The notes below the pieces were generated by a model. It saw only the letters and a list, made by a program, of their open reading frames with translations. It searched no databases and had not been told where the DNA came from. DNA of 36,270 nucleotides from Thermofilales archaeon (lineage in GTDB: Archaea > Thermoproteota > Thermoprotei > Thermofilales > Thermofilaceae): contig JAPWTS010000009.1 of NCBI GenBank assembly GCA_028275925.1, positions 1 through 36,270 of the forward strand, written 5' to 3'. The position numbers were made by a program, and so were the translations under genes. Below, in pieces: positions 6,275 through 36,270 of the stretch; positions within the stretch are counted from its first letter, which is position 1, and each line of letters starts with the position of its first letter.

Positions 6275-7234
6275 GTGAGCTTGAAGCATAAAAGTAAGGA
6301 CCGAGCGCTAGCGCGGCGGATGCTACTGCAAAGGAAGCATGAATTGCAAGCTACTTTAGATACCCTCCTTGTAAAACTTGATAAATTGTATGAAATAGAT
6401 CGAATGTTATCAGAAGAATGTAGAAAGCGTATAGATGAATACCATGCTAATATAGAAGAACTTAAAAATATTCATTTACAGATAGAGCAATTAAGAGAAG
6501 AAATCAAAAATATCGCACAGCTGCTTGAACGATCTTCAATGCAACAGTTAGAAAGTTTGATAATGAGTACTAAAGGCATAGAGGCGCAGGTGAATCAAAT
6601 AAGTTTACAACTTGTATTGATAGCGAGAAAACTTAGGTTAGAAATAGATATAATACCGAACGAAAAGCGATGTAAAAATGTTCATATGTTCGAAATTCGC
6701 GACGCTTGGCCGGAGATAGCCGCGCTAGCTGAAAAGGTGGTCCAGAAGCAATCTATCTCTGGGCTGGACGCGAAGAACTTCGAGGAGCTGGCTAATGCGA
6801 CCGGCTGGGACGAGGCTGATCTAAAGGAAGAGCTAGCCAAGCTCGCCGAAGACCCTTCAGAGAGCGTGGCTAGGTACAGGGAGTTGTTCGAGAAGTACCA
6901 CCGGGAAGCGCTAGACCTCTTCGCTAAGGGAGATACTAGGCAGGCTGCGGAGAAGCTGTGGGCGGCAACGCTGGCGCTGGTGAAGCTCTACGCGGCCGCC
7001 AAGGGGATTTTCGTCGCTCACTGGAGCCGCGCGAGGATCGACGACGTGATAGCGAACAACGTCGAGCGAGAGCACAGGAGGCTTTTCAGGGAGCTCGTGG
7101 ACAAAGCCCAGGTTCTCCACGAGCACTTCTACGAGGGGAACCTCAACGAGGAGCTGTTCAGGGAGCGTTGGAGCGAAGCTCTCGAGCTGCTGGAAAGAGT
7201 TAAGGGAATAGTGTACGAGAAGCTCCAGCGCTAA
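6275..7234 (+). CDS. Two-part protein: AT-rich coiled coil fused to a PaREP1/HEPN-like domain
   Basis: A 319-residue protein with two very different halves. Residues 1 to about 140 are a Lys/Glu/Ile/Gln-rich helical coil written in AT-rich codons (roughly 6300-6700). Residues about 145-319 are GC-rich like the rest of the window and resemble the archaeal PaREP1 family, a helical HEPN-like group. Key segments are YRELFEKYHREALDLFAKGD, AAEKLWAATLALVKLYAAAKG and SRARIDDVIANN. PaREP1 proteins are common in Thermoproteales and of unknown function. The coil has no recognised domain. The start is a GTG at 6275, with TATA-like sequence CTTAAAC about 32 nt upstream, so the start is not certain. The composition break suggests a fusion or a rapidly evolving segment. 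No function can be assigned. Confidence 0.7.
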   Translation: MSLKHKSKDRALARRMLLQRKHELQATLDTLLVKLDKLYEIDRMLSEECRKRIDEYHANIEELKNIHLQIEQLREEIKNIAQLLERSSMQQLESLIMSTKGIEAQVNQISLQLVLIARKLRLEIDIIPNEKRCKNVHMFEIRDAWPEIAALAEKVVQKQSISGLDAKNFEELANATGWDEADLKEELAKLAEDPSESVARYRELFEKYHREALDLFAKGDTRQAAEKLWAATLALVKLYAAAKGIFVAHWSRARIDDVIANNVEREHRRLFRELVDKAQVLHEHFYEGNLNEELFRERWSEALELLERVKGIVYEKLQR

Positions 7235-7317: not shown

Positions 7318-8145
7318 CTAGCCCTCCTCCACCGCTCCGCGACCGCGCCTCTCTAGGGTTCTGAGGGCGATCTCCCTGAGCTCTCTGTACGTTAGGAGCA
7401 CGCAGCTCACATCGTCTTCCGCCGGAGCGTACTCGGGGTCGTACCTAGCCCTGTTCCTCGCCTCCAGCGCCCTGTACAGCTTCGGCACGATGTCTCTGCC
7501 GACCTCGCCCGGAACTACGTAGAGCTCCCCGAACCTCTGGATGTAGCCTCCGTGGCTCCTCGGCAGGGCCCCTCCTTTAGCGAGGATCATAGCCTTTAGC
7601 AGAAGCTCGACGGCGTTCTGCCCGAGGTCCACCGCTGCCCTGAGCATCAGCTGCTGCGCGCACTTCACCGCGTAGCCGTAGTACTCCTCGGCCAGCTCCA
7701 CAAGCTTCCTAACCATCTCCTCCTCGGGTTTCGGGTCGCGGTAGAGCTCCCTGCCGTACCTTTCCACCTCGTAGATGAGCGGGTTCCCCGAGAGCTTCGC
7801 CCTGTACTCCTCCAAGCTCATGACCACGTACTCCACGGGCTCGCGCGACCTCAAGCTGACCTCGAACGCCGCTTCAGCCACGATCTCCTTGACCTCGTCC
7901 GTCACGCGGTCGACCACGACCAGCACGTCTACGTCGCTGCCCTCGTCCGCCGAACCCTTGGCCACGCTCCCGAACAGCACCACTCTGCACAGCCTACCCC
8001 TCAGCCGCTCCGCCAGCACCTTCGCGAACTCCTTAGCGCACGCAACCTTGCTCTCGAGGCTGCTCACAGGGCACCTGTCCCTTCCTGCGGTCCCATCGTA
8101 AATGCGTTTCCCCGCAGCTTCACGATATTGAGTGGGACGCGCCAC
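7318..8145 (-). CDS. Fused minimal nucleotidyltransferase (MNT)-HEPN protein
   Basis: One chain carries both halves of the MNT-HEPN toxin-antitoxin type. The nucleotidyltransferase signature is VVLFGSVAKGSADEGSDVD at residues about 55-73, with Gly59-Ser60 and the metal-binding Asp71/Asp73. A helical HEPN domain occupies about 140-265, with LMLRAAVDLGQNAVELLLKA and the end motif ARNRARYD. There the usual R-x4-6-H is R230-x4-Tyr, as in HI0074-type HEPN proteins without clear nuclease activity. The real start may be the GTG at 8067, since the first 26 residues look non-native; that gives 249 residues. In two-gene systems MNT AMPylates the HEPN toxin on a tyrosine. Fusion would fix the pair at 1:1. 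A defence role is an inference, since no other defence gene is nearby. Confidence 0.8.
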   Translation of the reverse strand: MARPTQYREAAGKRIYDGTAGRDRCPVSSLESKVACAKEFAKVLAERLRGRLCRVVLFGSVAKGSADEGSDVDVLVVVDRVTDEVKEIVAEAAFEVSLRSREPVEYVVMSLEEYRAKLSGNPLIYEVERYGRELYRDPKPEEEMVRKLVELAEEYYGYAVKCAQQLMLRAAVDLGQNAVELLLKAMILAKGGALPRSHGGYIQRFGELYVVPGEVGRDIVPKLYRALEARNRARYDPEYAPAEDDVSCVLLTYRELREIALRTLERRGRGAVEEG

Positions 8146-8184: not shown

Positions 8185-10908
8185 GTGGAGGGGTCGGGCG
8201 GCGAAATAGCCGGTCCGCTAGTGAGGATCGGAGGCCTTATAGCTTTCGTTCTCGGCGTTTTCGAGGTCGTAAAGGGTTTGCTGCTTCTCGCTTTAGTTCA
8301 GGCTGCGGGTAGGCTCCTCAGCGGCGCTTGGCTCCTCAGCAGCATTTTCCCCGAGCTGGGCTGGCTCCTGAGCCTTGTCCCCGTCAGCGGAACCGCCCTA
8401 GCAGCGGCGCACATTGTTGCAGGGGCGGTGTACGCCGCGGCGGCTCGCCCGCTCATCAAGGCCCCCGTGCCGATGCCGCCTGAAGAGAGGGACAAGTGGA
8501 TAACGGTTCTAGCAGCGGTCGCCATAATCCTCAACTTACACGATCTCCTCCTAGCTTTGGGCCTCTCGCTTGCGGGTCTCCTCCTAGGCGCCGCTGAAGC
8601 AACTCAGCAGTCGGCGGAGACGCGCCCCAACCGAATGCCGCGTGCGTTCACGCGATGCGACAAGCTGCTATACTTTATTATACGGCAGTTCCGCGATTCC
8701 CCCATGCTCGCGCTGCTACTTGCGTTAGCGCTGCTGCTCTCTAGGCAGCTCTCACCGCCACCGGCCCTCTCAGAGCTGCTATGGGCGCTCGCCTTGCTGG
8801 CTTCCAACGCGAGCCTCTACGCGGCTCCGACCTTCGAGGTGAGGGAGATAGGGGGCTACCCGGTGCCGTTCCAGAACGGCGTCGTTTACCCGACATTCGG
8901 GAGGCAGCCGTCCAGGCTGTACGTCGACCTCTCCGGCGACTGGGAGCTGCTGTACGACGAGGAGGCGGGCAACGCGCGCGTCGGGGGCGTCAGGCTCTCG
9001 CTTTCCGCGAGGAGCCCGGAGGTGGTCGAGCTCCTCACCGAGCAGATGCGGAGCGCGCTGGCGAGAGGGGGCTGGAGGAGGGTGCGCGTGCCCTCCGTCA
9101 ACAACGCGCGCGGCTCGGAGATGGAGGGCTTCCAGGGCGTCGCGTGGTACAGAAAAGTCTTCGAGGTTCCGGCGGGCCTGCTGAGCGGCGGCAGGAGGGT
9201 TTTCCTGGTTTTCCACGGCGCGAACTACGTGGCTGATGTGTGGCTCAACGGCGTCTACCTCGGCTACCACGAGGGCGGCTTCACGCCCTTCGTCTTCGAC
9301 GCGACGGGCGCTCTGCGGGAGGGGGCGAACGAGCTGGTCGTTAGGGTCGACAACGTCCCGTGGGATTCTGAAGACGCCCGCTTCGTCACCGTCCCCTACA
9401 AGAAGTGCGACTGGTGGAACTACGGGGGCATCTACAGGGACGTGTACCTCGAGGCGGTCAACGCGACCTACATCGCCCGCCTGGACCTGGTGCCCCGCAA
9501 GCTCGAAGGGGGCTGGGGCCTCGAAGCCAGGGTCGTCGTCGTGAGCGCGGGCGGGGGGCGGGCCAGGCTGGAGCTCCGCGTCCACCCGGCGAGCGCCGCC
9601 GGCAGGGTGGAGCCCGACGCTCTCTCGATCGCGAACCTCTCCGAAACCGTGGTGGAGCTCTCGCGGGAGGTCGAGCTGGAGCCGGGCGTCAGCGTCGTCG
9701 CGCTGCGCGCTGAAGGTTTGAAAGCGCGCGAGTGGAGCCCCGAGAGCCCCTCCCTCTACGCTGCTGCTGCCCGGTTGGTGGAGGGCGGAGCGGTCTTAGA
9801 CGAGGTGTGGGACCAGTTCGGCTTCCGGGAGGTTAAGGCGGAGGGTTCGAGGATCCTGCTGAACGGGAAGCCCGTGTTCCTGAAGGGGGTGTCGAGGCAC
9901 GAGGACTACCCGGGGCTGGGGAGGGCGCTCCCGCCGAGCTTGATCTACGAGGACCTGCGTATCGTGAAGGAGATGGGCGCGAACTTCCTCAGGACCGCCC
10001 ACTACCCCAACCACCCGCTCACCTACGTCTACGCGGACAGGCTCGGCCTGCTCGTCTGGGAGGAGATCCCCGTCTACTGGTTCGACTGCGAGGCGCTCCG
10101 CGCCCAGCTGGCGAGGGGCGTCGCCAGGCAGATGCTGCTCGAGATGGTGTACAGGGACTTCAACAGGCCCTCCATCATCATCTGGAGCTTGGCGAACGAG
10201 TGCGGGTGCCGGGACGAGAGGGTCGCGCTGCTCAGGGACCTGGCGCAAGCGGCGCGCCGGGCGGACCCGACGAGGCTGCTCACGCAAGCGATCGCTTGGG
10301 ACCCGAGCGACGACACGACGCTGAGGGCGGGCCTCGACGTCCTGTCCGTGAACATGTACTTCGGCGTCTTCTACGGGAAGCTGGAGGACATGGACGCTGC
10401 GATCAAGGAGCTGAGGAGGAGGTACCCGAGCGTCCCGATAGTGATCAGCGAGTTCGGTTTCTGGTCGGGCGGGGGCGTGGGCGAAGCGAGGCAAGCCGAG
10501 TACTTCGCGAGGGCGTGGAAGATCATCGAGTCTAACAGGGACCTCCTGAGCGGAGCCGCCTGGTGGACCGCCTTCGACTACGACAGCATGATCGTCTTCG
10601 ACACGTTCGGCGCGCTGGACTGGCAGCGGGGGCACCGGAAGCTCCTGTTCTACGACATCAAGAGGGCGTACGAGAGCTTCCCGCCCGCCGGAGAGAGCGG
10701 GCGGGAGGGCTTCCCCTCGGCTCTGCTCCTCGCGGCGGCAGCCGCGGCCCCGCTCCTCTACGTCGCCGGGAAGGTCATAAAGAAGAAATACGGCTCAACC
10801 CAGAGGACGGGCGATGGAGAAGGAGAAGGGCGCGTTCATGAGGAAGGAGCTGGGCGAGGGCCCGCAGGCGGTCCTCAGAACCCTCCGCGAGGCTCGCGAG
10901 GAGGTTAA
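8185..10908 (+). CDS. Glycoside hydrolase family 2 enzyme, membrane anchored; long ORF with a multi-TM N-terminal extension
   Basis: The frame is open for 907 residues, but the enzyme proper probably starts at the ATG at 8704, where a TATA box lies 27 nt upstream and a signal-peptide-like MLALLLALALLL begins. Residues 1-173 (from the GTG at 8185) are about four hydrophobic helices and may be a separate membrane protein whose stop was lost, or a true fusion. The GH2 part shows LYVDLSGDW (sugar-binding domain), FLKGVSRHEDYPGLGRAL, acid/base Glu672 in SLANECG and nucleophile Glu756 in VISEFGFW. Family 2 enzymes cleave beta-galactosides, beta-glucuronides or beta-mannosides. A C-terminal helix (ALLLAAAAAAPLLYVAG) followed by KVIKKK suggests an outward-facing catalytic domain. 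The last roughly 32 residues overlap the next gene and are low complexity. Confidence 0.82.
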   Translation: MEGSGGEIAGPLVRIGGLIAFVLGVFEVVKGLLLLALVQAAGRLLSGAWLLSSIFPELGWLLSLVPVSGTALAAAHIVAGAVYAAAARPLIKAPVPMPPEERDKWITVLAAVAIILNLHDLLLALGLSLAGLLLGAAEATQQSAETRPNRMPRAFTRCDKLLYFIIRQFRDSPMLALLLALALLLSRQLSPPPALSELLWALALLASNASLYAAPTFEVREIGGYPVPFQNGVVYPTFGRQPSRLYVDLSGDWELLYDEEAGNARVGGVRLSLSARSPEVVELLTEQMRSALARGGWRRVRVPSVNNARGSEMEGFQGVAWYRKVFEVPAGLLSGGRRVFLVFHGANYVADVWLNGVYLGYHEGGFTPFVFDATGALREGANELVVRVDNVPWDSEDARFVTVPYKKCDWWNYGGIYRDVYLEAVNATYIARLDLVPRKLEGGWGLEARVVVVSAGGGRARLELRVHPASAAGRVEPDALSIANLSETVVELSREVELEPGVSVVALRAEGLKAREWSPESPSLYAAAARLVEGGAVLDEVWDQFGFREVKAEGSRILLNGKPVFLKGVSRHEDYPGLGRALPPSLIYEDLRIVKEMGANFLRTAHYPNHPLTYVYADRLGLLVWEEIPVYWFDCEALRAQLARGVARQMLLEMVYRDFNRPSIIIWSLANECGCRDERVALLRDLAQAARRADPTRLLTQAIAWDPSDDTTLRAGLDVLSVNMYFGVFYGKLEDMDAAIKELRRRYPSVPIVISEFGFWSGGGVGEARQAEYFARAWKIIESNRDLLSGAAWWTAFDYDSMIVFDTFGALDWQRGHRKLLFYDIKRAYESFPPAGESGREGFPSALLLAAAAAAPLLYVAGKVIKKKYGSTQRTGDGEGEGRVHEEGAGRGPAGGPQNPPRGSRGG
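8671..8683 (+). promoter_or_regulatory. TATA box inside the long GH2 frame
   Basis: TACTTTATTATAC is an AT-rich element in a GC-rich context, with TTTATTA centred about 27 nt before the in-frame ATG at 8704. It argues that the glycosidase is expressed from this internal start as a leaderless transcript. Confidence 0.6.
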
Positions 10909-11863
10909 AGCCGCCGCCGACCTGCTGAGGAGCTTGGCCGGCGCGGGCGTGGAGAGGGGCTTCATCATCGGGAGCGGCACGAGCTTCCACGCCAGCCTCT
11001 ACCTCCAGCACCTCCTCAACAAGCTCACCGGCTTCCACGTGACCGCGGTCCCCGCGTCGGAGTTCGCCGAGTGGAGGCCCGCCAAGCACGCGAAGTACTT
11101 CATCATCGGTTACTCGCAGTCGGGGGAGAGCAGCGACATCGTCGAAGCGTTCAAGGTGGCGAAGGCCGCCGGCGTCAAGACGATCGCGATAACGAACACG
11201 CCCGGGAGCACGCTGACCAGGATCTCCGACGCCTGCATCGTCACGAGGGCCGGCGAGGAGAAGGCGGTGGCGGCGACGAAGACCTTCGACGTGCAGCTGG
11301 CCGCCGCGCTGATGCTCGCCCACGAGCTGGCTGGAAAGCACACGGGCGAGCTGGAGAGGGCCGCCGAAGCCGCCGAAAGGGTGCTGCGCGCCGAGAGCGA
11401 GGTCCGCTCGCTGGCTGAGCGCTACGTGAAAGCCGAGCACGCGTTCAGCCTGGGCAAGGACTCCGCCTACCCCATAGCGCTCGAAGCCGCGCTCAAGCTC
11501 AAGGAGGCGGCGATGGTGCACGCGGAGGGCTTCGCGGCGCGGGAGTTCCTCCACGGCCCCGTGCAGCTGGTGGACGAGACGACGCCGGTCCTCGCTTTCG
11601 CGCCCAGCGCTGAGGCGTTCAAGGGATCGCTCAAAGCGTTCGAGAAGATCGCGCAGTACAAGGCCCCGCTCATCCTCGTCGGGCCGGGCGCCGGCGAGGT
11701 CGCCGGCTACGCCGCCCACCGGGTTGAGGTGCAGGGGGTCGAGGGGGACGCCGCTGCGATACCGCTGGTCAAGTTCGCCCAGCTCTTCGCCTACCACCTC
11801 AGCGTGCTGCGCGGCTTAGACCCCGACAAGCCCACGAAGCTGACGAAGGTCGTGAAGTACTGA
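10814..11863 (+). CDS. Double-SIS sugar-phosphate isomerase/deaminase (GlmS isomerase-domain type, GlmD-like)
   Basis: A 349-residue protein with two SIS domains, equivalent to the isomerase half of glucosamine-6-phosphate synthase without the glutaminase domain. Phosphate-binding motifs are visible: GSGTSFHAS at 53-61 and YSQSGESSD at 100-108. The second SIS domain contains LEAALKLKEAAMVHAEGFAAREFLHGP, the GlmS-like active-site region. In Thermococcus a protein of this type (GlmD) is the glucosamine-6-phosphate deaminase in the chitin pathway, so conversion of GlcN-6-P to Fru-6-P plus ammonia is the best guess. It starts inside the end of the GH2 frame (95-nt overlap), with a TATA-like GAAATACGG about 26 nt before the ATG. 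A T7 run follows the stop. It could accept amino sugar from the MurQ pathway further right in this window. Confidence 0.8.
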   Translation: MEKEKGAFMRKELGEGPQAVLRTLREAREEVKAAADLLRSLAGAGVERGFIIGSGTSFHASLYLQHLLNKLTGFHVTAVPASEFAEWRPAKHAKYFIIGYSQSGESSDIVEAFKVAKAAGVKTIAITNTPGSTLTRISDACIVTRAGEEKAVAATKTFDVQLAAALMLAHELAGKHTGELERAAEAAERVLRAESEVRSLAERYVKAEHAFSLGKDSAYPIALEAALKLKEAAMVHAEGFAAREFLHGPVQLVDETTPVLAFAPSAEAFKGSLKAFEKIAQYKAPLILVGPGAGEVAGYAAHRVEVQGVEGDAAAIPLVKFAQLFAYHLSVLRGLDPDKPTKLTKVVKY

Positions 11864-21786: not shown

Positions 21787-22611
21787 GTGGGCGTAAAGTT
21801 CACGGTTTTCACGCTCGCCTTCCCCGGCTACACGGCCGAGGGGGCCGTGGAGGCTGCGGCCCGCCTCGGCTTCGACGGGGTTGACATCAGGGCGAGGGAG
21901 GACGGCCACATCTACGTGGACACCCCGAGCGAGCGCAGGAGGAGGCTGGTGGAGCTCGCTGAGAGCCTGGGGGTCGAGATAGCGAGCGTCTATTCCTACG
22001 TAGGCCGCGAGCTCGCATCCCCGGACCCCGGCGAGAGGAGGAGGGGGCTCGAGCTCCTCTCAGCGCTCCTCGACCTCGCGGTGGACCTAGGGGGCGAGTA
22101 CGTGAGGGTTTTCGCGGGGACCCGGGAGAGGACCGAAGAGAACTTCCGCAGGCTCGTGGAGTCGCTCAAGCTAGCGTGCAGGGGGGCTGAGGATAGGGGG
22201 GTGAAGATCGGCGTGGAGACGCACGGCGAGCTCGCGTACTCGGGAGCCACCTGCAGGAGGCTTCTGGAGGAGGTGGGCTCCAGCGCGCTGAGCATCGTCT
22301 ACGACGTGGCGGGGGTCTACAGGGAGGGGCTGGACCCGTTGAGCGAGCTCAAATCGCTGGGGGTCAGGGACGTGATCGCCGTCCAATTCCACGACTTCAA
22401 AAGGGAGGGGGGCGCGTGGAAGCCGGTTCTCTTGGGCGAGGGCGAGGTGCCGCACAAACCCGTGGTCGAATACCTGGTCAGCGCGGGTTACAGCGGCTTC
22501 GCGGTCTGCGAGTACGAGAAGTGGTGGCACCCGGAGCTGCCGGATCCCCTAGAGGCTCTGCCCAGGGAGCTGGCGTACGTGAAAGCCCTCTTCGGGGGTG
22601 CGCGACCGTGA
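21787..22611 (+). CDS. TIM-barrel sugar-phosphate isomerase/epimerase (xylose-isomerase-like)
   Basis: A 274-residue protein of the AP-endonuclease-2/xylose-isomerase-like barrel family. The metal ligands expected at the barrel mouth are visible: Glu144 in GVETHGE, Asp173 in VYDVAG, His202 in QFHDFK and Glu242 in AVCEYEK. Such enzymes isomerise or epimerise sugars, inosose or hydroxypyruvate, or dehydrate inosose. GTG 21787 is chosen over ATG 21763 because the TATA element overlaps that ATG and because the family begins at the first barrel strand (VKFTVFTLAFPGY). The stop overlaps the racemase start by GTGA, so the two genes are coupled. Together with the Gfo/Idh enzyme it hints at sugar or polyol breakdown, but no substrate can be given. 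Confidence 0.82.
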   Translation: MGVKFTVFTLAFPGYTAEGAVEAAARLGFDGVDIRAREDGHIYVDTPSERRRRLVELAESLGVEIASVYSYVGRELASPDPGERRRGLELLSALLDLAVDLGGEYVRVFAGTRERTEENFRRLVESLKLACRGAEDRGVKIGVETHGELAYSGATCRRLLEEVGSSALSIVYDVAGVYREGLDPLSELKSLGVRDVIAVQFHDFKREGGAWKPVLLGEGEVPHKPVVEYLVSAGYSGFAVCEYEKWWHPELPDPLEALPRELAYVKALFGGARP

Positions 22612-23726
22612 CTGTGATAAAGAGCGTGGAGGTCGTACCCCTCAAGATACCGTTCGTGAGACCCTTCAAGATCTCCAGAGGATACGTGGGGGCGCCGGGG
22701 CAGCCCGGCGACCACGTGTACGTGAAGCTCGTGACGAGCGACGGGGAGGTGGGCTGGGGCGAGGCGCGCCCCATGCCCTCTTGGATGTACGAGACCGTGG
22801 AGTCCGTTTGCACGAGCGTGGAAAGGTACCTGGCGAAGGTGCTCGTGGGGGAGGACCCCTTCAACATCAACAAGATACACGCGGAGATGGAGAGGGTCCT
22901 GGCGCCCGCCGTCACAACGGGTATGCCGTTCGCGAAGTCGGCTGTGGACATCGCGCTGCACGATCTCGTGGGGAAGCTCACGGGAGCACCGCTGCACGCA
23001 CTACTGGGGGGCAAGCTGAGAGACAGCGTCGAGATGGCGGCGCTGGTGTCCGGCGAGCCGGGCGCGGTGGCCGAGTACGCTAAGGAGCTGCGGGCGAAGG
23101 GGCACAGGTGCTTCAAGCTGAAGATCATGGGGGATCCGGAGCTGGACAGCGAGCTCGTGAGGGAGCTCAAGGAGGCGGTCCCCGAGGCGAGCTTGTGGCT
23201 TGACGCGAACCAAGCGTACACGGACTTCAAGCTCCGCCTGCTCCTGCGGAGGATCGCGGGCGTCGAAGGGGTCATCTGCCTAGAGCAGCCGGTGCCCACG
23301 TACGACTTCTTCGGCTTGCGCAGGATCGCGAGGGTGAGCCCCGTGCCGGTGGCGGTCGACGAGTCCCTCTTCTCGCACTACGACCTGCTGAAGCTGGTAC
23401 GCTTCGAAGCTCTGGACGCGCTCGTCCTCAAGGTGGCGAAGTCGGGGATCAGGCGCACGCTGAAGATCTACGCGCTGGCCGAAGCGGCGGGTCTCAGCTG
23501 CTTGGGCAGCGGGATGACCGAGAGCGGCGTCGGGCTCGCAGCGTCGATCCACGTCTTCTCGACGCTCGATCTCGCGGCTCCCGTCGACACTAACGGCCCC
23601 CAGTTCCTCAAGGACCTCCTGGTGAGGGGGCTCGGGATCGAGGGTGCTAGAGTGAAAGTCCCCAGCAAGCCGGGCCTCGGGGTGGAGGTGGACGAGAGGA
23701 AGCTGGAGGAGTACAGGGTTCGGTGA
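22608..23726 (+). CDS. Enolase-superfamily racemase/epimerase (MLE subgroup; dipeptide-epimerase or DgcA type)
   Basis: A 372-residue protein of the muconate-lactonising subgroup. Two lysines face each other across the active site: Lys172 in the FKLKIMG (KxK) motif and Lys278 in LKVAKSG. Magnesium ligands are Asp199 (LDANQAY), Glu226 (LEQPVP) and Asp251 (AVDESLF). The paired lysines are the hallmark of racemases, epimerases and cycloisomerases. L-Ala-D/L-Glu epimerase, N-acylamino-acid racemase and the N-acetyl-D-glutamate racemase DgcA belong here. The GTG at 22608 overlaps the upstream stop. With a DUF1611 protein also encoded in the window, handling D-glutamate or peptidoglycan dipeptides is a good hypothesis, yet a lactonase or sugar-acid role cannot be excluded. 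Confidence 0.82.
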   Translation: MTVIKSVEVVPLKIPFVRPFKISRGYVGAPGQPGDHVYVKLVTSDGEVGWGEARPMPSWMYETVESVCTSVERYLAKVLVGEDPFNINKIHAEMERVLAPAVTTGMPFAKSAVDIALHDLVGKLTGAPLHALLGGKLRDSVEMAALVSGEPGAVAEYAKELRAKGHRCFKLKIMGDPELDSELVRELKEAVPEASLWLDANQAYTDFKLRLLLRRIAGVEGVICLEQPVPTYDFFGLRRIARVSPVPVAVDESLFSHYDLLKLVRFEALDALVLKVAKSGIRRTLKIYALAEAAGLSCLGSGMTESGVGLAASIHVFSTLDLAAPVDTNGPQFLKDLLVRGLGIEGARVKVPSKPGLGVEVDERKLEEYRVR

Positions 23727-30571: not shown

Positions 30572-31525
30572 ATGCCTGAGATCGGGGCGTACAAGCCGGG
30601 AGACGAGGAGGCCGTCGTGCGGTCGTGGAACAAGCTCCTCAGGTACGATCCCGTGGACTTGAAGGTCTTCGAGCGCAAGGTTCTGCTGGACCCGAACTTC
30701 GAGGCCGAGGGGTTGAAGGTGGCGCGCGGCGAGGGGGGCGTTGAGGGCTTCGCGCTGTGCCTCGTGAGGAGGTACCCGCTCTTCTACCGGGGGCTGGAGG
30801 AGGAGCACGGGTGGATCACCGCGCTCGCCTTCGAGCCCCAGCGCCCCGAGGTGGGCGACAGGCTGGTGGAGGAGGCGCTCGCCTTCTTCAGGGCGAGGGG
30901 GAGGAGGATCGTGTGGTTCGCCACCTACACGCCCAACTACTTCTTCCCCGGCGTCGACCCCGACAGGTACGGGTGGCTGCTCCAGCTGCTCGAGCGGCAC
31001 GGATTCGAGAGGGTTTACGAGGCTTTGAGCATGGACGCCCAGCTGTGGCCCGACTACGCGCCCCCGCCCGAGGTGGAGGAGCTGGAGCGCAAGCTCGAGA
31101 GCGAGGGGGTGGAGGTCCGCCCGCTCGAAACCCGCGACATCTACCCCTTCCTCAAGTTCCTCGAGCGCAGCTTCCCCGCCGACTGGTACAGGCACGCGCT
31201 CGAGCTGCTGCAGAGCGGCTGCGAGAAGGGCCAGATCCTCGTGGCGGTGAAGGGCGGCGAGGTGCTGGGCTACTGCCAGTACTGGCACAGCGAGGACTAC
31301 AACTGGCACAGGCCGGGGGCGCACTTCGGCCCCTTCGGCGTCCGCGAGGACGCGAGGGGGAGGGGCATCGGCACGGTGCTCCTGGCGCGCTGCCTGTGGG
31401 AGATGAGGAAGAGAGGCATCCACAACGCGTTCGTCCTCTGGACGGACGAGCGGGCCGCGAGGCTCTACTCGCGCTTCGGCTTCAGGGTGACGCGCAGGTA
31501 CTACGTCATGAGGAGGAGGCTGTAG
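30572..31525 (+). CDS. Tandem-GNAT N-acetyltransferase family protein
   Basis: A 317-residue protein with two GNAT-like halves. The N-terminal half is weaker (FALCLVRRYPLFYRG, WITALAFEP). The C-terminal half has a full acetyl-CoA site: GPFGVREDARGRGIGTVLLARCLWEM at about 255-280, then ALFVLWTDERAARLYSRFGF-like HNAFVLWTDE and LYSRFGFRVT. Such enzymes move acetyl groups to amines of sugars, peptides or small molecules. The PIG-L gene begins 1 nt after the stop, so an acetyl-in/acetyl-out relation on one substrate is plausible. Another option is a mycothiol-synthase-like tandem GNAT, since mycothiol genes also pair tandem GNAT and PIG-L deacetylase. The other mycothiol genes are not seen, so that is only a thought. 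Confidence 0.75.
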   Translation: MPEIGAYKPGDEEAVVRSWNKLLRYDPVDLKVFERKVLLDPNFEAEGLKVARGEGGVEGFALCLVRRYPLFYRGLEEEHGWITALAFEPQRPEVGDRLVEEALAFFRARGRRIVWFATYTPNYFFPGVDPDRYGWLLQLLERHGFERVYEALSMDAQLWPDYAPPPEVEELERKLESEGVEVRPLETRDIYPFLKFLERSFPADWYRHALELLQSGCEKGQILVAVKGGEVLGYCQYWHSEDYNWHRPGAHFGPFGVREDARGRGIGTVLLARCLWEMRKRGIHNAFVLWTDERAARLYSRFGFRVTRRYYVMRRRL

Positions 31526-31526
31526 G

Positions 31527-32222
31527 GTGGCCGCGATGGTCAAGCTGATGGTCGTGGGCGCGCACGCGGGCGACGCCGAGGTCACGTGCGGCGGCCTCAT
31601 CGCGAAGCTCGCGCGGGCCGGCCACGAGGTCGTCATCGTCCACATGACGCTGGGGGAGAGGGGGCACCCGAAGCTCTCGGAGGAGGAGTACGCGGCCCAG
31701 AAGCGCAGGGAGGCTGAGGAGGCGGCGAGGATCCTGGGCGCCAAGCCGGTCTTCCTGCCCTACAGGGACGGGGAGCTGCCGGTGAGCGGCGAGGTGAAGT
31801 TCCGGCTCTGCGACCTGATCAGGGAGTACAGGCCCGAGATCCTGGTCACCCACTGGAGGGGCAGCATCCACAGGGACCACAGGAACACGTACAGGAACGT
31901 GGTGGACGCGCTCTTCTACGCGGCCCTGCCGGCCGTCAAGCGCGAGAAGCCGGCCCACCGGGTCCGCAGGGTTTTCTTCGCGGAAAACTGGGAGGACCCG
32001 CGCGGCTTCCGCCCCAACGTCTACGTGGACATCAGCGACGCGTTCGAGGTGTGGAGGGAGGCGGCGAGCGCTTACGCGTTCGCCAGGGGGGAGACCGGCT
32101 TCCCCTACATCGAGTACTACACCTGCCTCTTCAGGATCAGGGGGATCGAGTCGGGCTTCAAGTACGCTCAAGCGCTGATGGCCCCCAGCGAGCAGCTGAG
32201 GCAGGTGCTGAGGGAGCTCTAG
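31527..32222 (+). CDS. PIG-L-family (LmbE-like) N-deacetylase
   Basis: A 231-residue zinc-dependent deacetylase of the PIG-L/LmbE family. The first metal motif is normally AHPDDE and here reads GAHAGDAE (His13, Asp16, Glu18), which keeps the metal-binding residues but replaces Pro-Asp. The second motif, SIHRDHRNTYR, carries His115 and His118. Length is near the family norm of 220-270. Known substrates are GlcNAc-containing compounds: GlcNAc-PI, mycothiol and bacillithiol precursors, and diacetylchitobiose in Thermococcus. In the present context GlcNAc, GlcNAc-6-P or MurNAc-derived sugar is a reasonable guess. GTG 31527 or ATG 31536 may be the start. It is convergent with namZ, and their stop codons share the palindrome CTAG at 32219-32222. 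Confidence 0.85.
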   Translation: MAAMVKLMVVGAHAGDAEVTCGGLIAKLARAGHEVVIVHMTLGERGHPKLSEEEYAAQKRREAEEAARILGAKPVFLPYRDGELPVSGEVKFRLCDLIREYRPEILVTHWRGSIHRDHRNTYRNVVDALFYAALPAVKREKPAHRVRRVFFAENWEDPRGFRPNVYVDISDAFEVWREAASAYAFARGETGFPYIEYYTCLFRIRGIESGFKYAQALMAPSEQLRQVLREL

Positions 32223-33442
32223 CCGAGCGGCAGCGAGCGCGGCTCGTACAGCAGCACGCCTTTCTCCGCGGCCTTCTCCAGGTAGCGCCTCCGCTCCCTC
32301 CTCCAGCGCTCCTCCGCCCCCTCCACGTCGGCGCGGCCCTCGATGCACTCCCTAACCTCGCTCGTGCCGGCCAGGTAGTCGATCACGTACCTGCTCGCCC
32401 CCGTCGACCAGGCGGTGTAGTCCTTGACGTACTCGACCTCGCGCTCCGCCTCCCTCGTCAGCAGCTCGAACTCCCCGTACATCTCCCTGATCCTCCGCAG
32501 GATCCTGACGAACGCGGTGAAGGGCTTGAACGTGCTCCGGTCCACCACGTGCACGTAGACGCCGCTGACGAGCTGCCCCCTGTACTTGCTGGCGGTGGGG
32601 ACGAACTTCACTGGCCTGAACGCGGCGCCGGGGATCCCCTCCTCGTTGAGGGCGCGCGCCAGCTTCCTCGCTTTAACCCATGGGGCGCCGAACTGGAGGA
32701 AGGGTGAGGCGGTGCCGCGCCCCTCCGATAGGTTCGTGCCCTCGAGCATGCACGCGCCAGCGTACACTAGCGCTGTCTCGAGGTTCGGGATGTTCGGCGA
32801 CGTGGGGATCCAGGGGAGCCCCGTCTCGTCGAACCACATGCTGCGCCGCCACCCTTCGAGCTCGAGCACCCGCACCTCGCAGTTCAACCCCTCCACCCTC
32901 GAGTAGTAGAGGGCCAGCTCGCCGGGCGTCAGCGCGTACCTCGCCGGGATGCTCGCAACCCCCACGAAGGACCTGTACTCCGGCTTCAGCACCGGCCCCT
33001 CGGTGGCAACGCCGGTGAGCGGGTTCGGCCTGTCCAGCACGAGGAGCGGCACCCCCGCTTTCGCGCAAGCCCTCTCGACGTAGTACAGCGTAGAAACGTA
33101 GGTGTACCAGCGGAGGCCCAGATCCTGGACGTCGTAGACGACGAGGTCCAGCTTCTGCAGCTCCTCAACGGGCGGCTCGAGGTTTTCGCCGTAGAGGCTG
33201 TAAACCCTCACCCCGAACTCCCCGTCGAAGCCCGAGCGGACGAACTCGCCGGCGGCAGCGGCGCCCCACAGGCCGTGCTCGGGCGTGAAGACGACCTCGA
33301 CGCGCGCGTGCTCCCCAGCGACCTCGACGATGTGCTCCATCGACGAGTTGAAGCTGGTCTGGTTCGCGACGAGGCCGACCCGCCTCCCCCGCAGCGCGCG
33401 CGCCAGCTCCTCCCTCCTGTCCGCCCCCAAGCCGACCCTCAA
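32219..33442 (-). CDS. namZ: NamZ-type exo-beta-N-acetylmuramidase (DUF1343/YbbC family)
   Basis: A 407-residue DUF1343 protein. Conserved blocks appear in order: RVGLVANQTSFNSSMEH, VVFTPEHGLWG, a VRVYSLYG strand, DLVVYDVQDLGLRWYTYVST, LLVLDRPNPLTG and the following Gly-x-Val-Ala-Ser segment. SPNIPNLETALVYAGACMLEGTNLSEGRGT comes next. NamZ of Bacillus and Tannerella cleaves terminal MurNAc from the non-reducing end of peptidoglycan chains and is linked with MurQ in bacterial MurNAc recycling. The start is the TTG at 33442, overlapping the murQ stop (TTGA); the longer open frame upstream is antisense to murQ. No signal peptide is visible, so it would act inside the cell on imported fragments. 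It is the last gene of a three-gene operon. Confidence 0.88.
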   Translation of the reverse strand: MRVGLGADRREELARALRGRRVGLVANQTSFNSSMEHIVEVAGEHARVEVVFTPEHGLWGAAAAGEFVRSGFDGEFGVRVYSLYGENLEPPVEELQKLDLVVYDVQDLGLRWYTYVSTLYYVERACAKAGVPLLVLDRPNPLTGVATEGPVLKPEYRSFVGVASIPARYALTPGELALYYSRVEGLNCEVRVLELEGWRRSMWFDETGLPWIPTSPNIPNLETALVYAGACMLEGTNLSEGRGTASPFLQFGAPWVKARKLARALNEEGIPGAAFRPVKFVPTASKYRGQLVSGVYVHVVDRSTFKPFTAFVRILRRIREMYGEFELLTREAEREVEYVKDYTAWSTGASRYVIDYLAGTSEVRECIEGRADVEGAEERWRRERRRYLEKAAEKGVLLYEPRSLPLG

Positions 33443-34383
33443 CCCCTCCCACCCTTCAGCTTCTTCGCCAGCTCTATGGCCCTCGTCGGGATGTAGTTGG
33501 CCTGCTTGAGCAGCTCGACCGCCTCCCTGTAGCCGACGCCGGCCACCGCCATGACGATCGCGGCCGGCACGTCGTACCCGGCCTCCTCGAGGATCCGGGA
33601 GGCCTCCTCGTAGCTGACGCCTGCCTCCATCATGATTATCCTCTTCGCCCTCTCCCTCAGCTTCTGGCTGACGGGCTGGAGCGCGACCATCAGGTTCCCG
33701 TACACCCTCCCCAGCTTCACCATGACCGCCGTGCTCAGCATCGTCAAGACCATCTTCTGCGCCGTCCCCGCTTTCATCCTCGTCGAGCCCGTGATCACCT
33801 CCGGCCCCGTCTTCACCACCACCTTGATGTCTGCGTACTCGGTTGCGGGCGAGTTCTCGACGCACGTTATGATGGCCGTCTTCGCGCCCACGCTCTTCGC
33901 GTACCTCAAGGCCGAGACCACGTAGGGCGTCCGCCCGCTCGCGCTAATCCCGACCACCACGTCCTTCTCGCAGAGCCTCCTCGCCTTCAGCTCCCGCACC
34001 GCCATCTCCTCGTCGTCCTCGGCGCCCTCGATCGGCCTCACCATCGCCCCCGGGCCCCCCGCCACCAGCGCCTCCACCACCTCGGGCCCCACGTCGTACG
34101 TTGAGAGGAGCTCCGCCACGTCGATCGCAGCCAGCCTGCCGCTCGTCCCAGCGCCCACGTAGATCCAGCGGCCCCCGCTCCTCACCGCTTCGACGATCGC
34201 GTCGACGAGCTTCGCGATCTCCGGCAGAGCCTTCTCCACCGCGTAAGCCACCTTCTTGTCCTCCTCGTTGATCACCCTCAGTATCTCGATCGTATCCATC
34301 TCGCTGAGCCGCTCGCTGGCCGGGTTCCTCTGCTCCGTCTCGAGCTTCGAGAGGAGCTCGAAGACCGACCGCTCGCCCGTCAC
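33439..34383 (-). CDS. murQ: N-acetylmuramic acid 6-phosphate etherase
   Basis: A 314-residue MurQ. It removes the lactyl group from MurNAc-6-P to give GlcNAc-6-P and D-lactate. The family signature TEQRNPAS lies at 16-23. GAGTSGRLAAIDVAELLSTYDVGP contains the catalytic Glu91, and EGAEDDEEMAV contains Glu122. These match Glu83 and Glu114 of the E. coli enzyme, with the same 31-residue spacing. VVVGISASGRTPYVVSALRYAKS and GPEVITGSTRMKAGTAQK are also intact. Bacterial GuaB-like fusions are absent. The GTG start overlaps the kinase stop (GTGA). Archaeal genes of this type are unusual, since Archaea have no muramic acid. The protein is catabolic, so its presence implies a bacterial cell-wall substrate. 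Confidence 0.95.
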   Translation of the reverse strand: MTGERSVFELLSKLETEQRNPASERLSEMDTIEILRVINEEDKKVAYAVEKALPEIAKLVDAIVEAVRSGGRWIYVGAGTSGRLAAIDVAELLSTYDVGPEVVEALVAGGPGAMVRPIEGAEDDEEMAVRELKARRLCEKDVVVGISASGRTPYVVSALRYAKSVGAKTAIITCVENSPATEYADIKVVVKTGPEVITGSTRMKAGTAQKMVLTMLSTAVMVKLGRVYGNLMVALQPVSQKLRERAKRIIMMEAGVSYEEASRILEEAGYDVPAAIVMAVAGVGYREAVELLKQANYIPTRAIELAKKLKGGRG

Positions 34384-35348
34384 GGCGCCTCGGCGGTCGG
34401 CAGCGGAGGCGGTATTTCAACCTTCACCCTCTCCAGCTCCTCAGGCCCCAGCCCTTTCAGGGAGAGGTAGTGGAGGACACAGCCGGCCAGCGCGGGCGTC
34501 TCGCTCAAGCGGAACATCCTGCCCTTCGCCTCCACGAGCCTCTTCAGCGCCTCGGCCAGCGGCTTGCACCCGAGCAGGGCGCCGCCCGTCCCGTAGACGG
34601 TGGGAGGCTCCTCGAAGCCGAGCCGCCGCTCGACGGCCGACACCATCCGCTCGAGCTCCCGCGCAGCCTCCTCGATGACCCGCGAGGCCGCCTCGCACCC
34701 CAGCACCGCGGCCTCGCAGGCGAGCTTGGCCAGCTCGGCCGTCTTGCTCGGCGCCGCGTACTCCCTGTACAGCTTCCCCACCGCCTCCTCGACCGTCGAA
34801 GCTCCCAGCCGCCGGAGCAGCAGGTCCACGAGCTCGCCGCACTCCTCCCTCCCGTCGTAGCAGGCGAGGGTCCGCCGAACCAGCTCCCTCCCGATCCAGT
34901 AGGCGCTGCCCTCGTCGCCGAAGATGTAGCCCCAGCCGCCCGCCCTCGCGGCCCTACCCCTCCTCCGGCCGTAGGCGAAGGAGCCGGTCCCCGAGGAGAC
35001 GACGATCGCGTCCCTGCCGCGGGCGGCTGCCATGTACACGGCTTCGATGTCGGTGAGCAGCCAGACGCGCGCCCCCAGCTCTCTCTCGAGCAGAGCCTCC
35101 ACCTCCCCCCTGAAGGCCGAGACCCCGGCCAGGCTGAGCACGTAGCCGGCCGCGCGCCCCCCGCAGAGCTCCAGCGCGGGCCGCAGGAGGGCTCTGAGGT
35201 TCCTCAGGAAGCTCTCACGCCCCAGCGCCGCGTAGTTGAGGGGAGGGCCTGCGAACGACGCGTAAACCCTCGCCTCCCCGTCGAAGACGAGCGCCCTCGA
35301 GCCGCTGCCGCCCCCGTCCACTGCGATCAGCAGCTCCCCGCCGCCCAC
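34380..35348 (-). CDS. BadF/BadG-type sugar kinase (GlcNAc/MurNAc kinase-like)
   Basis: A 322-residue ASKHA-fold ATPase of the BadF/BadG/BcrA group, which contains N-acetylglucosamine kinase and MurK, the GlcNAc/MurNAc kinase. Phosphate-1 is LIAVDGGGSGSRALV, phosphate-2 is VVSSGTGSFAYGRR, and the signature GGWGYIFGDEGSAYWIG follows. The adenosine motif is VYGTGGALLGC at about 265-275. It is the first gene of the kinase-murQ-namZ operon, with a GTG start 25 nt from a TATA box shared with the divergent gene. Its place before murQ makes MurNAc the most likely substrate, so it would supply MurNAc-6-P without a phosphotransferase system. GlcNAc is the alternative. Cys-rich stretches are few, so it is not a benzoyl-CoA reductase activator. 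Confidence 0.88.
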   Translation of the reverse strand: MGGGELLIAVDGGGSGSRALVFDGEARVYASFAGPPLNYAALGRESFLRNLRALLRPALELCGGRAAGYVLSLAGVSAFRGEVEALLERELGARVWLLTDIEAVYMAAARGRDAIVVSSGTGSFAYGRRRGRAARAGGWGYIFGDEGSAYWIGRELVRRTLACYDGREECGELVDLLLRRLGASTVEEAVGKLYREYAAPSKTAELAKLACEAAVLGCEAASRVIEEAARELERMVSAVERRLGFEEPPTVYGTGGALLGCKPLAEALKRLVEAKGRMFRLSETPALAGCVLHYLSLKGLGPEELERVKVEIPPPLPTAEAP

Positions 35349-35367
35349 GCGGCTCGCGCGCGCTGCC

Positions 35368-35377
35368 GATTTATATC
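35368..35377. promoter_or_regulatory. Shared bidirectional TATA box of the MurNAc operon and the AmiE-like gene
   Basis: GATTTATATC is near-palindromic and centred on 35372.5, exactly midway between the minus-strand GTG at 35348 and the plus-strand GTG at 35397. Both genes would be leaderless. Confidence 0.65.
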
Positions 35378-35396
35378 GCTGACCCCCCTGCCGCCC

Positions 35397-36270
35397 GTGC
35401 TGCCGAGCGGGAAGCCGGAGGAGCTCGGCTTCGACCCCGAGAGGCTGGAGCTCGTCGACCGCCTCGTCCAGCGGCTCGTCGACGCGGGCTGCTTCCCCGG
35501 AGCCGTCCTGCTGGTGGCGAGGCGCGGCAGGATCGCGTACTTCAAGGCCTTCGGCTACGCGCAGCTCTACCCGGAGCGCCGGCCCATGACGTTAGAAACC
35601 GTGTTCGACCTCGCCAGCCTGACGAAGGTGGTGGCCACCACGCCCGTGATCCTGAGGCTCGCGGAAAAAGGCGAGCTGAGCTTGGACGACCCGGTCTCGC
35701 TTTACTTCCCAGCGTTCGGCGAGGGGCCGAAGAGGAAGGTGACGGTCTGGCACCTCCTCACCCACACCTCCGGCCTCCCCGCCTACGCCCCGCTCTACTC
35801 GCTCCTCGGGAGGAGGGAGGACGCGTACGGCTACATCGCGGGGCTCAACCTGGAGTACGAGCCGGGGACGAAGGTCGTGTACAGCGACCTCGGCTTCATC
35901 CTGCTGGGCAGGATCGCCGAGCTGGTCGCGGGGAAGCCGCTCGACGAGCTCGCGAGAGAGCTCGTGTTCGAGCCGCTGGGGATGAGGGATACAATGTTCA
36001 ACCCGCCGCCCGAGCTGAGGGAGAGGGCCGCGGCCACCGAGTACTGCAGGCTGAGGAAGCGGATCCTGAAGGGCGAGGTCCACGACGAGAACGCGTGGTT
36101 CATGGGCGGCGTCGCAGGGCACGCGGGCCTCTTCTCCACCGCCCGCGACCTCGCCCTCTACGCCCAAATGTGGCTGAACAAGGGTACATTCGGCGCGAGG
36201 GTGCTGAGCCCCGCTACGGTGGATCTCGCGACGCGGAACCACACCCAGGGACTTAACGAGTGCAGGGGCT
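35397..36270 (+). CDS. Serine beta-lactamase-fold hydrolase, AmiE-like (3' truncated by window edge)
   Basis: The visible 291 residues are the N-terminal part of a class C beta-lactamase/penicillin-binding-protein-like hydrolase. The catalytic Ser74 and Lys77 are in ASLTKVVATT. The second motif is YSD at 162-164, where beta-lactamases have YAN or YSN. HLLTHTSGLPAY and MRDTMFNPPPE are typical of the family. No signal peptide is seen. In Bacillus subtilis a protein of this fold, AmiE (YbbE), is the N-acetylmuramyl-L-alanine amidase encoded with murQ and namZ. Here it is divergent from the kinase-murQ-namZ operon and shares its promoter, which supports the same role. Esterase or D-aminopeptidase activity is also possible. 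The gene runs off the right edge. Confidence 0.82.
   Translation, partial: MLPSGKPEELGFDPERLELVDRLVQRLVDAGCFPGAVLLVARRGRIAYFKAFGYAQLYPERRPMTLETVFDLASLTKVVATTPVILRLAEKGELSLDDPVSLYFPAFGEGPKRKVTVWHLLTHTSGLPAYAPLYSLLGRREDAYGYIAGLNLEYEPGTKVVYSDLGFILLGRIAELVAGKPLDELARELVFEPLGMRDTMFNPPPELRERAAATEYCRLRKRILKGEVHDENAWFMGGVAGHAGLFSTARDLALYAQMWLNKGTFGARVLSPATVDLATRNHTQGLNECRG

Follow-up and report, generated by a model that had tools for sequence, protein, structure and literature searches.

A predicted N-acetylmuramic acid catabolism module in a Thermofilaceae archaeon

Why should an archaeon, which makes no N-acetylmuramic acid (MurNAc), encode a set of enzymes for dismantling this sugar? The question is raised by a 36,270-bp contig (JAPWTS010000009.1; G000:C30 in our survey) of a Thermofilaceae archaeon (GCA_028275925.1), the whole of which is hereafter called the window. 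The metagenome-assembled genome (MAG) to which it belongs comprises 1.95 Mb in 142 contigs, with a completeness of 95% and a contamination of 0.5%, and carries an archaeal small subunit rRNA gene on a contig other than the window. The window encodes a BadF/BcrAD-family sugar kinase resembling MurK, the MurNAc-6-phosphate (MurNAc-6-P) etherase MurQ, the exo-beta-N-acetylmuramidase NamZ, and an AmiE/PBP4B-like serine hydrolase, together with a tandem GNAT protein resembling GlmA and a PIG-L/LmbE-type protein. These genes suggest an intracellular module for muropeptide (MurNAc) catabolism, with which the archaeon would feed on bacterial peptidoglycan. The probability of this reading as a whole, including a bacterial ancestry of the module and its long residence in Thermoproteota, is put at about 0.8. 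MurNAc salvage in an archaeon had been proposed in an initial annotation made from the sequence alone, and it is still the best reading in view of the archaeal host, the host-like composition, and the synteny within the genus. MurA was absent from the host genome, and the module therefore does not serve wall synthesis.

The strongest assignment of the pathway is that of MurQ (314 aa; positions 33439 to 34383, reverse strand), which is predicted to cleave MurNAc-6-P. The protein scored 335 bits against the TIGR00274 equivalog model (cut-off, 302), matched PDB entry 4s12 with an E value of 4e-76, could also be aligned to 1nri, and carries the motifs GAGTSGRL and GSTRMKAGTA. Glu91 and Glu122, named as catalytic residues in the initial annotation, were both found, and their spacing is that of Glu83 and Glu114, the catalytic residues of Escherichia coli MurQ.

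NamZ (407 aa with a TTG start; positions 32219 to 33442, reverse strand) consists of the NamZ_N/NamZ_C domain pair (PF07075, E value 6e-73; PF20732, E value 6e-43) and matched PDB entry 4k05 (E value 7e-64); its blocks PEHG, YDVQDLGLRWYTY, LDRPNP, PTSPN, and EGTNLSEGRGT are intact, as had been reported. The AmiE-like gene (positions 35397 to 36270, forward strand, GTG start; PF00144, E value 9e-65) encodes the motifs of the beta-lactamase fold, SLTK (SxxK), YSD (YxD/N), and HTG. Its truncated part reached 188.7 bits, below the PBP4B equivalog cut-off of 385, so it was not assigned as PBP4B. A hydrophobic leader or signal peptide was absent from NamZ and AmiE, both in the window and in the relatives. 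NamZ of Bacillus is secreted; the missing leader bears on where the protein acts and does not touch its family assignment.

The kinase (322 aa; positions 34380 to 35348, reverse strand; PF01869, E value 7.8e-26) has the BcrAD_BadFG fold with DGGG, SGTGS, the catalytic Asp, and GGWGxxxGDEGS. Its best sequence match in the PDB was Clostridium acetobutylicum MurK (8zo3; E value 1.4e-28), which was also the top fold match (E value 5e-26) of a structural model with a predicted local distance difference test score (pLDDT) of 92, and the archaeal S. tokodaii hexokinase ranked second by fold and by sequence. In Tannerella MurK, the lactyl pocket is lined by small side chains (S133-P134-L135 and Thr94) rather than Glu or His, and these residues are said to leave room for MurNAc. 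A hand alignment placed Thr before the catalytic Asp of the window kinase and Gly-Gly-Trp at the loop, the loop being as in C. acetobutylicum MurK; this loop discriminates poorly (Gly-Gly-Arg in the S. tokodaii hexokinase), and the residues agree with MurNAc as substrate without being decisive. The kinase would act on MurNAc, with a role on N-acetylglucosamine (GlcNAc) as the alternative.

The gene order is compact. The kinase gene shares four bases with the MurQ gene, and the MurQ gene four with the NamZ gene, as stated earlier (GTGA at 34380-34383 and TTGA at 33439-33442, respectively), and the PIG-L gene (positions 31527 to 32222, forward strand; PF02585, E value 2.7e-30), beside the GNAT gene (about 30572 to 31525, forward strand), meets the NamZ gene tail to tail with another 4-base overlap. 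The AmiE-like gene is divergent from the kinase gene, with start codons 48 bp apart, and the centre of a TATA-like box, ATTTATAT (positions 35369 to 35376), is located 24.5 bp from either start. Such spacing between box and start is expected for leaderless archaeal transcripts. The divergent arrangement in the initial annotation was thus confirmed, and the promoter it assigned to both genes is kept as a candidate: the box, one of 30 A/T runs of at least 7 in a window of 65% GC, may act as a single bidirectional leaderless promoter element serving the kinase and AmiE directions. AmiE is cut at the end of the window because the window is the whole contig. The end of this contig overlaps by 127 bases with the beginning of contig C19 of the same MAG, and the joined open reading frame completes AmiE (367 aa; remainder at 1-357 of locus L003 on C19); the gene was cut in assembly and is not itself broken. 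The module had been placed at 34380-36270, an interval that contains the kinase and the larger part of AmiE but misses MurQ and NamZ at 32219-34383, and the gene set, correct for these four, left the linked PIG-L and GNAT unmentioned. Its extent should be given as about 30572-36270.

The module genes were surveyed in 398 Thermoproteota genomes, with counts uncorrected for shared descent. MurQ was detected in 28 genomes and NamZ in 29, with both in 23 (Fisher p 3e-27, ignoring relatedness), and the carriers belong to 14 families. AnmK, the kinase for anhydro-MurNAc, was present in 22 genomes, 21 of which also have MurQ or NamZ. Among 101 sampled relatives, MurQ exceeded its cut-off in 14, including two of the three other genomes of the genus; same-genus MAGs carry the module in synteny, and kinase, MurQ, and NamZ are clustered in most carriers. 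The neighbourhood recurs in relatives at the level of genus, family, and order, as the initial annotation had proposed to look for in other Thermoproteota. The curated cut-offs and the linkage conserved across many genomes exclude chance as the source of the gene set. In one relative (L043), the core is surrounded by AnmK, a second kinase, AmiE, an M28 peptidase, a LysA-type decarboxylase, and an SBP_bac_5 peptide ATP-binding cassette (ABC) transporter. The LysA-type decarboxylase of the relatives exceeds its cut-off, and processing of the diaminopimelate of wall peptides would fit this enzyme. In G135 (99% complete), NamZ, MurQ, kinase, AnmK, and a NagZ-type GH3 protein lie within about 11 kb on a 1.08-Mb contig. 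Kinase type may vary among the carriers, because the kinase adjoining MurQ in other families often shares no more than about 30% identity with that of the window. In a MurQ tree, the 26 archaeal sequences formed one clade (support 93/87) against 19 bacterial sequences, a thin sample too small to name a donor; transfers among archaea are likely.

The inclusion of GNAT and PIG-L in the module is new in this analysis. The two genes are adjacent in 14 genomes (the host and G001, G003, G008, G018, G024, G086, G094, G101, G109, G116, G122, G129, and G130), and in G024 the pair lies with AmiE and a NagZ-type GH3 gene, separate from kinase-MurQ-NamZ. Along its whole length, the GNAT model (pLDDT 82) matched the glucosamine N-acetyltransferase of C. 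acetobutylicum (5kf2; E value 6e-21, template modelling score 0.79), and a phmmer search gave a match to 5kga (E value 7e-11). C. acetobutylicum GlmA has been described as a glucosamine/glucosaminide N-acetyltransferase (cited in PMC4680927). The window GNAT retains Trp290 of the pocket and Tyr299 (in GlmA, the Trp beside Asp287, and Tyr297), which the archaeal copies keep; it was not assigned as GlmA, but may work like it. In PIG-L/LmbE zinc deacetylases, the motif HPDD contains the catalytic Asp together with metal-type His and Asp. The motif is H-A-G-D in the window and H-x-G-D in all module copies, and HPDD or HADD in other copies of the same and related genomes. Eleven of the 12 close PIG-L relatives in the phylum (E value ≤1e-30) are in MurQ-carrying genomes. 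A function of the pair in mycothiol or bacillithiol synthesis was rejected, as the scores were below the BshB and MshB cut-offs and GNAT had no NCBIfam match.

From these families, the following route is proposed. Wall fragments produced outside the cell would enter by a peptide-type importer; AmiE would strip the peptide from MurNAc, and NamZ would release MurNAc from the non-reducing end of MurNAc-GlcNAc. The MurK-like kinase would then use ATP to form MurNAc-6-P, which MurQ is predicted, with the greatest support, to convert to GlcNAc-6-phosphate (GlcNAc-6-P) and D-lactate. The absence of signal peptides from NamZ and AmiE suggests that hydrolysis is probably intracellular and follows import, unlike in Bacillus. 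In the last and weakest step, GNAT and PIG-L may adjust the acylation of the amino sugar, and glucosamine-6-phosphate (GlcN-6-P) might be turned into fructose-6-phosphate by a SIS-type deaminase. A candidate for GlcN-6-P use is the SIS protein at 10814-11863 of the window, whose resemblance to GlmD/NagB-II deaminases and to the isomerase domain of GlmS stays below cut-off in every case. PIG-L is a candidate deacetylase because NagA is absent from the host genome and from all module-bearing Thermofilaceae searched. The idea that it simply substitutes for NagA is weak: families f20, f22, and f30 have both PIG-L and NagA, and some NagA-less carriers, namely G002, G005, and G135, have no close module PIG-L. 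Beside AmiE, C19 (470-8867 of L003) encodes a DUF6785 membrane protein, an OPT-like transporter, and an M28 peptidase of 1486 aa that carries fused FtsX/MacB-type domains. These may be involved in peptide or muropeptide handling, the OPT-like and DUF6785 proteins possibly as substitute importers; a DUF6785 relative is also found near AmiE in G033. A wider proposal is doubtful, namely that several Thermoproteota classes use bacterial peptidoglycan for growth by means of a muropeptide pathway that is complete within the cytoplasm, with a GNAT/PIG-L amino-sugar step exclusive to it that lets it run without NagA.

Several observations weigh against muropeptide catabolism by this route. The kinase is 20-29% identical to the solved MurK proteins, and hexokinase and NagK are also close. 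No importer adjoins the module in this genome, a result for the genes neighbouring the module. GNAT lacks the Asp287 of GlmA (Leu in the window; Ala or Pro in other archaea), and the module PIG-L has Gly for the usual catalytic Asp, with the metal-type His and Asp kept. Because of these replacements, both proteins are candidates for altered chemistry, and the acylation step may be wrong. The same-genus genome G003 has GNAT, PIG-L, NamZ, and AmiE without kinase and MurQ, and MurQ was not found elsewhere in its assembly.

These points bear on the other explanations. Turnover of amino sugars outside peptidoglycan (for example GlcNAc, a host glycoconjugate, or chitin-like sugars), in which MurQ and NamZ would have come to act on another ether or glycoside, would agree with the resemblance of the kinase to GlcNAc kinases and hexokinase, with the GlcN/GlcNAc chemistry hinted at by GNAT and PIG-L, and with the lack of MurNAc synthesis in archaea. 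It is unlikely, however, in view of a MurQ above its equivalog cut-off with catalytic residues in place, of AnmK, whose known substrate is anhydro-MurNAc, tracking MurQ and NamZ across the phylum, of the LysA-type decarboxylase, NagZ-type GH3, and AmiE in the clusters, and of a Clostridium cluster nearly equal in content. Detoxification or modification of muropeptides, for signalling or protection from bacterial products and not as a carbon or nitrogen source, could account for a module with no adjoining importer in a genome with no NagA, and for the hydrolases alone in G003; it is more improbable still, since kinase and MurQ form a catabolic entry route to which relatives add a peptide importer, a DAP (diaminopimelate)-type decarboxylase, and a NagZ-type GH3. 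Mis-binning of bacterial DNA, as the contig or its module end, is hardly credible: all module genes are of bacterial-type families and the module lies at a contig end, but its tetranucleotide distance to the host is 0.104 (host chunks give 0.120, bacterial loci 0.35-1.03), same-genus MAGs show synteny, other archaeal carriers are on contigs of 1.08 Mb, 180 kb, and 126 kb, and archaeal MurQ is one clade. The tetranucleotide data, named at the outset as able to reveal a contaminant, thus gave a host-like composition and contradict one.

The predicted catabolic module was then compared with known systems. In Bacillus subtilis, the gene ybbC is namZ. MurQ, AmiE, and NamZ are clustered there too, in the recycling operon murQ-murR-murP-amiE-nagZ-ybbC, and the endpoint is likewise GlcNAc-6-P and D-lactate (PMC5061867). 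B. subtilis has the phosphotransferase system (PTS) importer MurP and MurR, and AmiE and NagZ act outside the cell, whereas the archaeal module has an ATP-dependent kinase, no PTS, no signal peptides, and GNAT and PIG-L in addition, in a genome with no GH3 protein of NagZ size. The likeness to Bacillus drawn in the initial annotation therefore extends to the gene set and not to secretion. Its point that a BadF kinase takes the place of the PTS applies here, but was already known from bacterial MurK of Tannerella and Clostridium (PMC5790795, PMC10465942). The murT-murK-murQ operon of Tannerella forsythia also places a BcrAD/BadFG-family MurNAc kinase beside MurQ in an organism unable to make MurNAc; unlike the archaeon, T. 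forsythia needs MurNAc for its own wall, its kinase is distantly similar, and NamZ, AmiE, GNAT, and PIG-L are not described in the operon. C. acetobutylicum, whose MurK and glucosamine N-acetyltransferase trace to Reith and colleagues (2011; cited in PMC5790795 and PMC4680927), provides the best kinase match (8zo3) and the best full-length GNAT match (5kf2), from which the archaeal module differs at Asp287 and by its PIG-L. In Clostridium oryzae (L071), a peptide ABC transporter, MurQ, AmiE, NagZ-type GH3, kinase, GNAT, and NamZ form one run. With five of the six module genes and a kinase rather than a PTS, this is the bacterial counterpart, differing by the GH3 and transporter in line, by the lack of PIG-L, and by a host with its own wall to recycle; the importer in line with the enzymes supports the order of import before cleavage. 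Archaeal peptidoglycan hydrolases described in 2025 are likewise aimed at bacterial peptidoglycan, but act outside and kill bacteria; that study left open whether bacteria are food or competitors, an OppBCDF-MppA association is all that it notes, and neither MurQ nor NamZ appears in it (PMC12352652). Lytic transglycosylases of Woesearchaeota likewise concern attack, not intracellular use of MurNAc (PMC9723730).

MurQ, NamZ, AmiE, and BadF-type MurNAc kinases are each already known from bacteria. No description of MurQ or NamZ in archaea was found in the open-access literature searched, and an earlier report in subscription papers is possible. A route from MurNAc to GlcNAc-6-P encoded in murein-free archaea makes the food hypothesis directly testable in named genomes, and bacterial walls probably serve some archaea as food. 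Bacterial necromass is thereby indicated as a source of carbon and nitrogen for archaeal thermophiles. The module also offers a set of enzymes that are probably heat-stable, and it links a pair of uncharacterised enzymes to a known pathway.

Further observations concern single genes. Two candidates for accessory functions were rejected: the five GH3 proteins of the host, of about 750-1090 aa, are not of NagZ size, and the MR/MLE protein at 22416-23726, tried as an L-Ala-D/L-Glu epimerase, best matched the muconate cycloisomerase family below cut-off. The window also encodes a PaREP1-family protein (an archaeal family) at 6275-7234 and a nucleotidyltransferase-HEPN protein at 7318-8145. In G003, the gap lies precisely where kinase and MurQ would stand, between NamZ and AmiE (7553-11576 of L141, contig C95). 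In the actinobacterial contigs L068 and L070, AnmK lies a few kilobases from MurQ, and in L070 a kinase adjoins MurQ. In five MurQ-less genomes of genus g25, NamZ lies directly 3' of a PRK02947-type SIS sugar isomerase, with AnmK elsewhere (L131 6832-8750 of G041, a complete genome in a single contig; L111, L113, L116, L123, and L126); this isomerase is a possible MurQ substitute, and an ortholog is found near NagA in G012 (L147).

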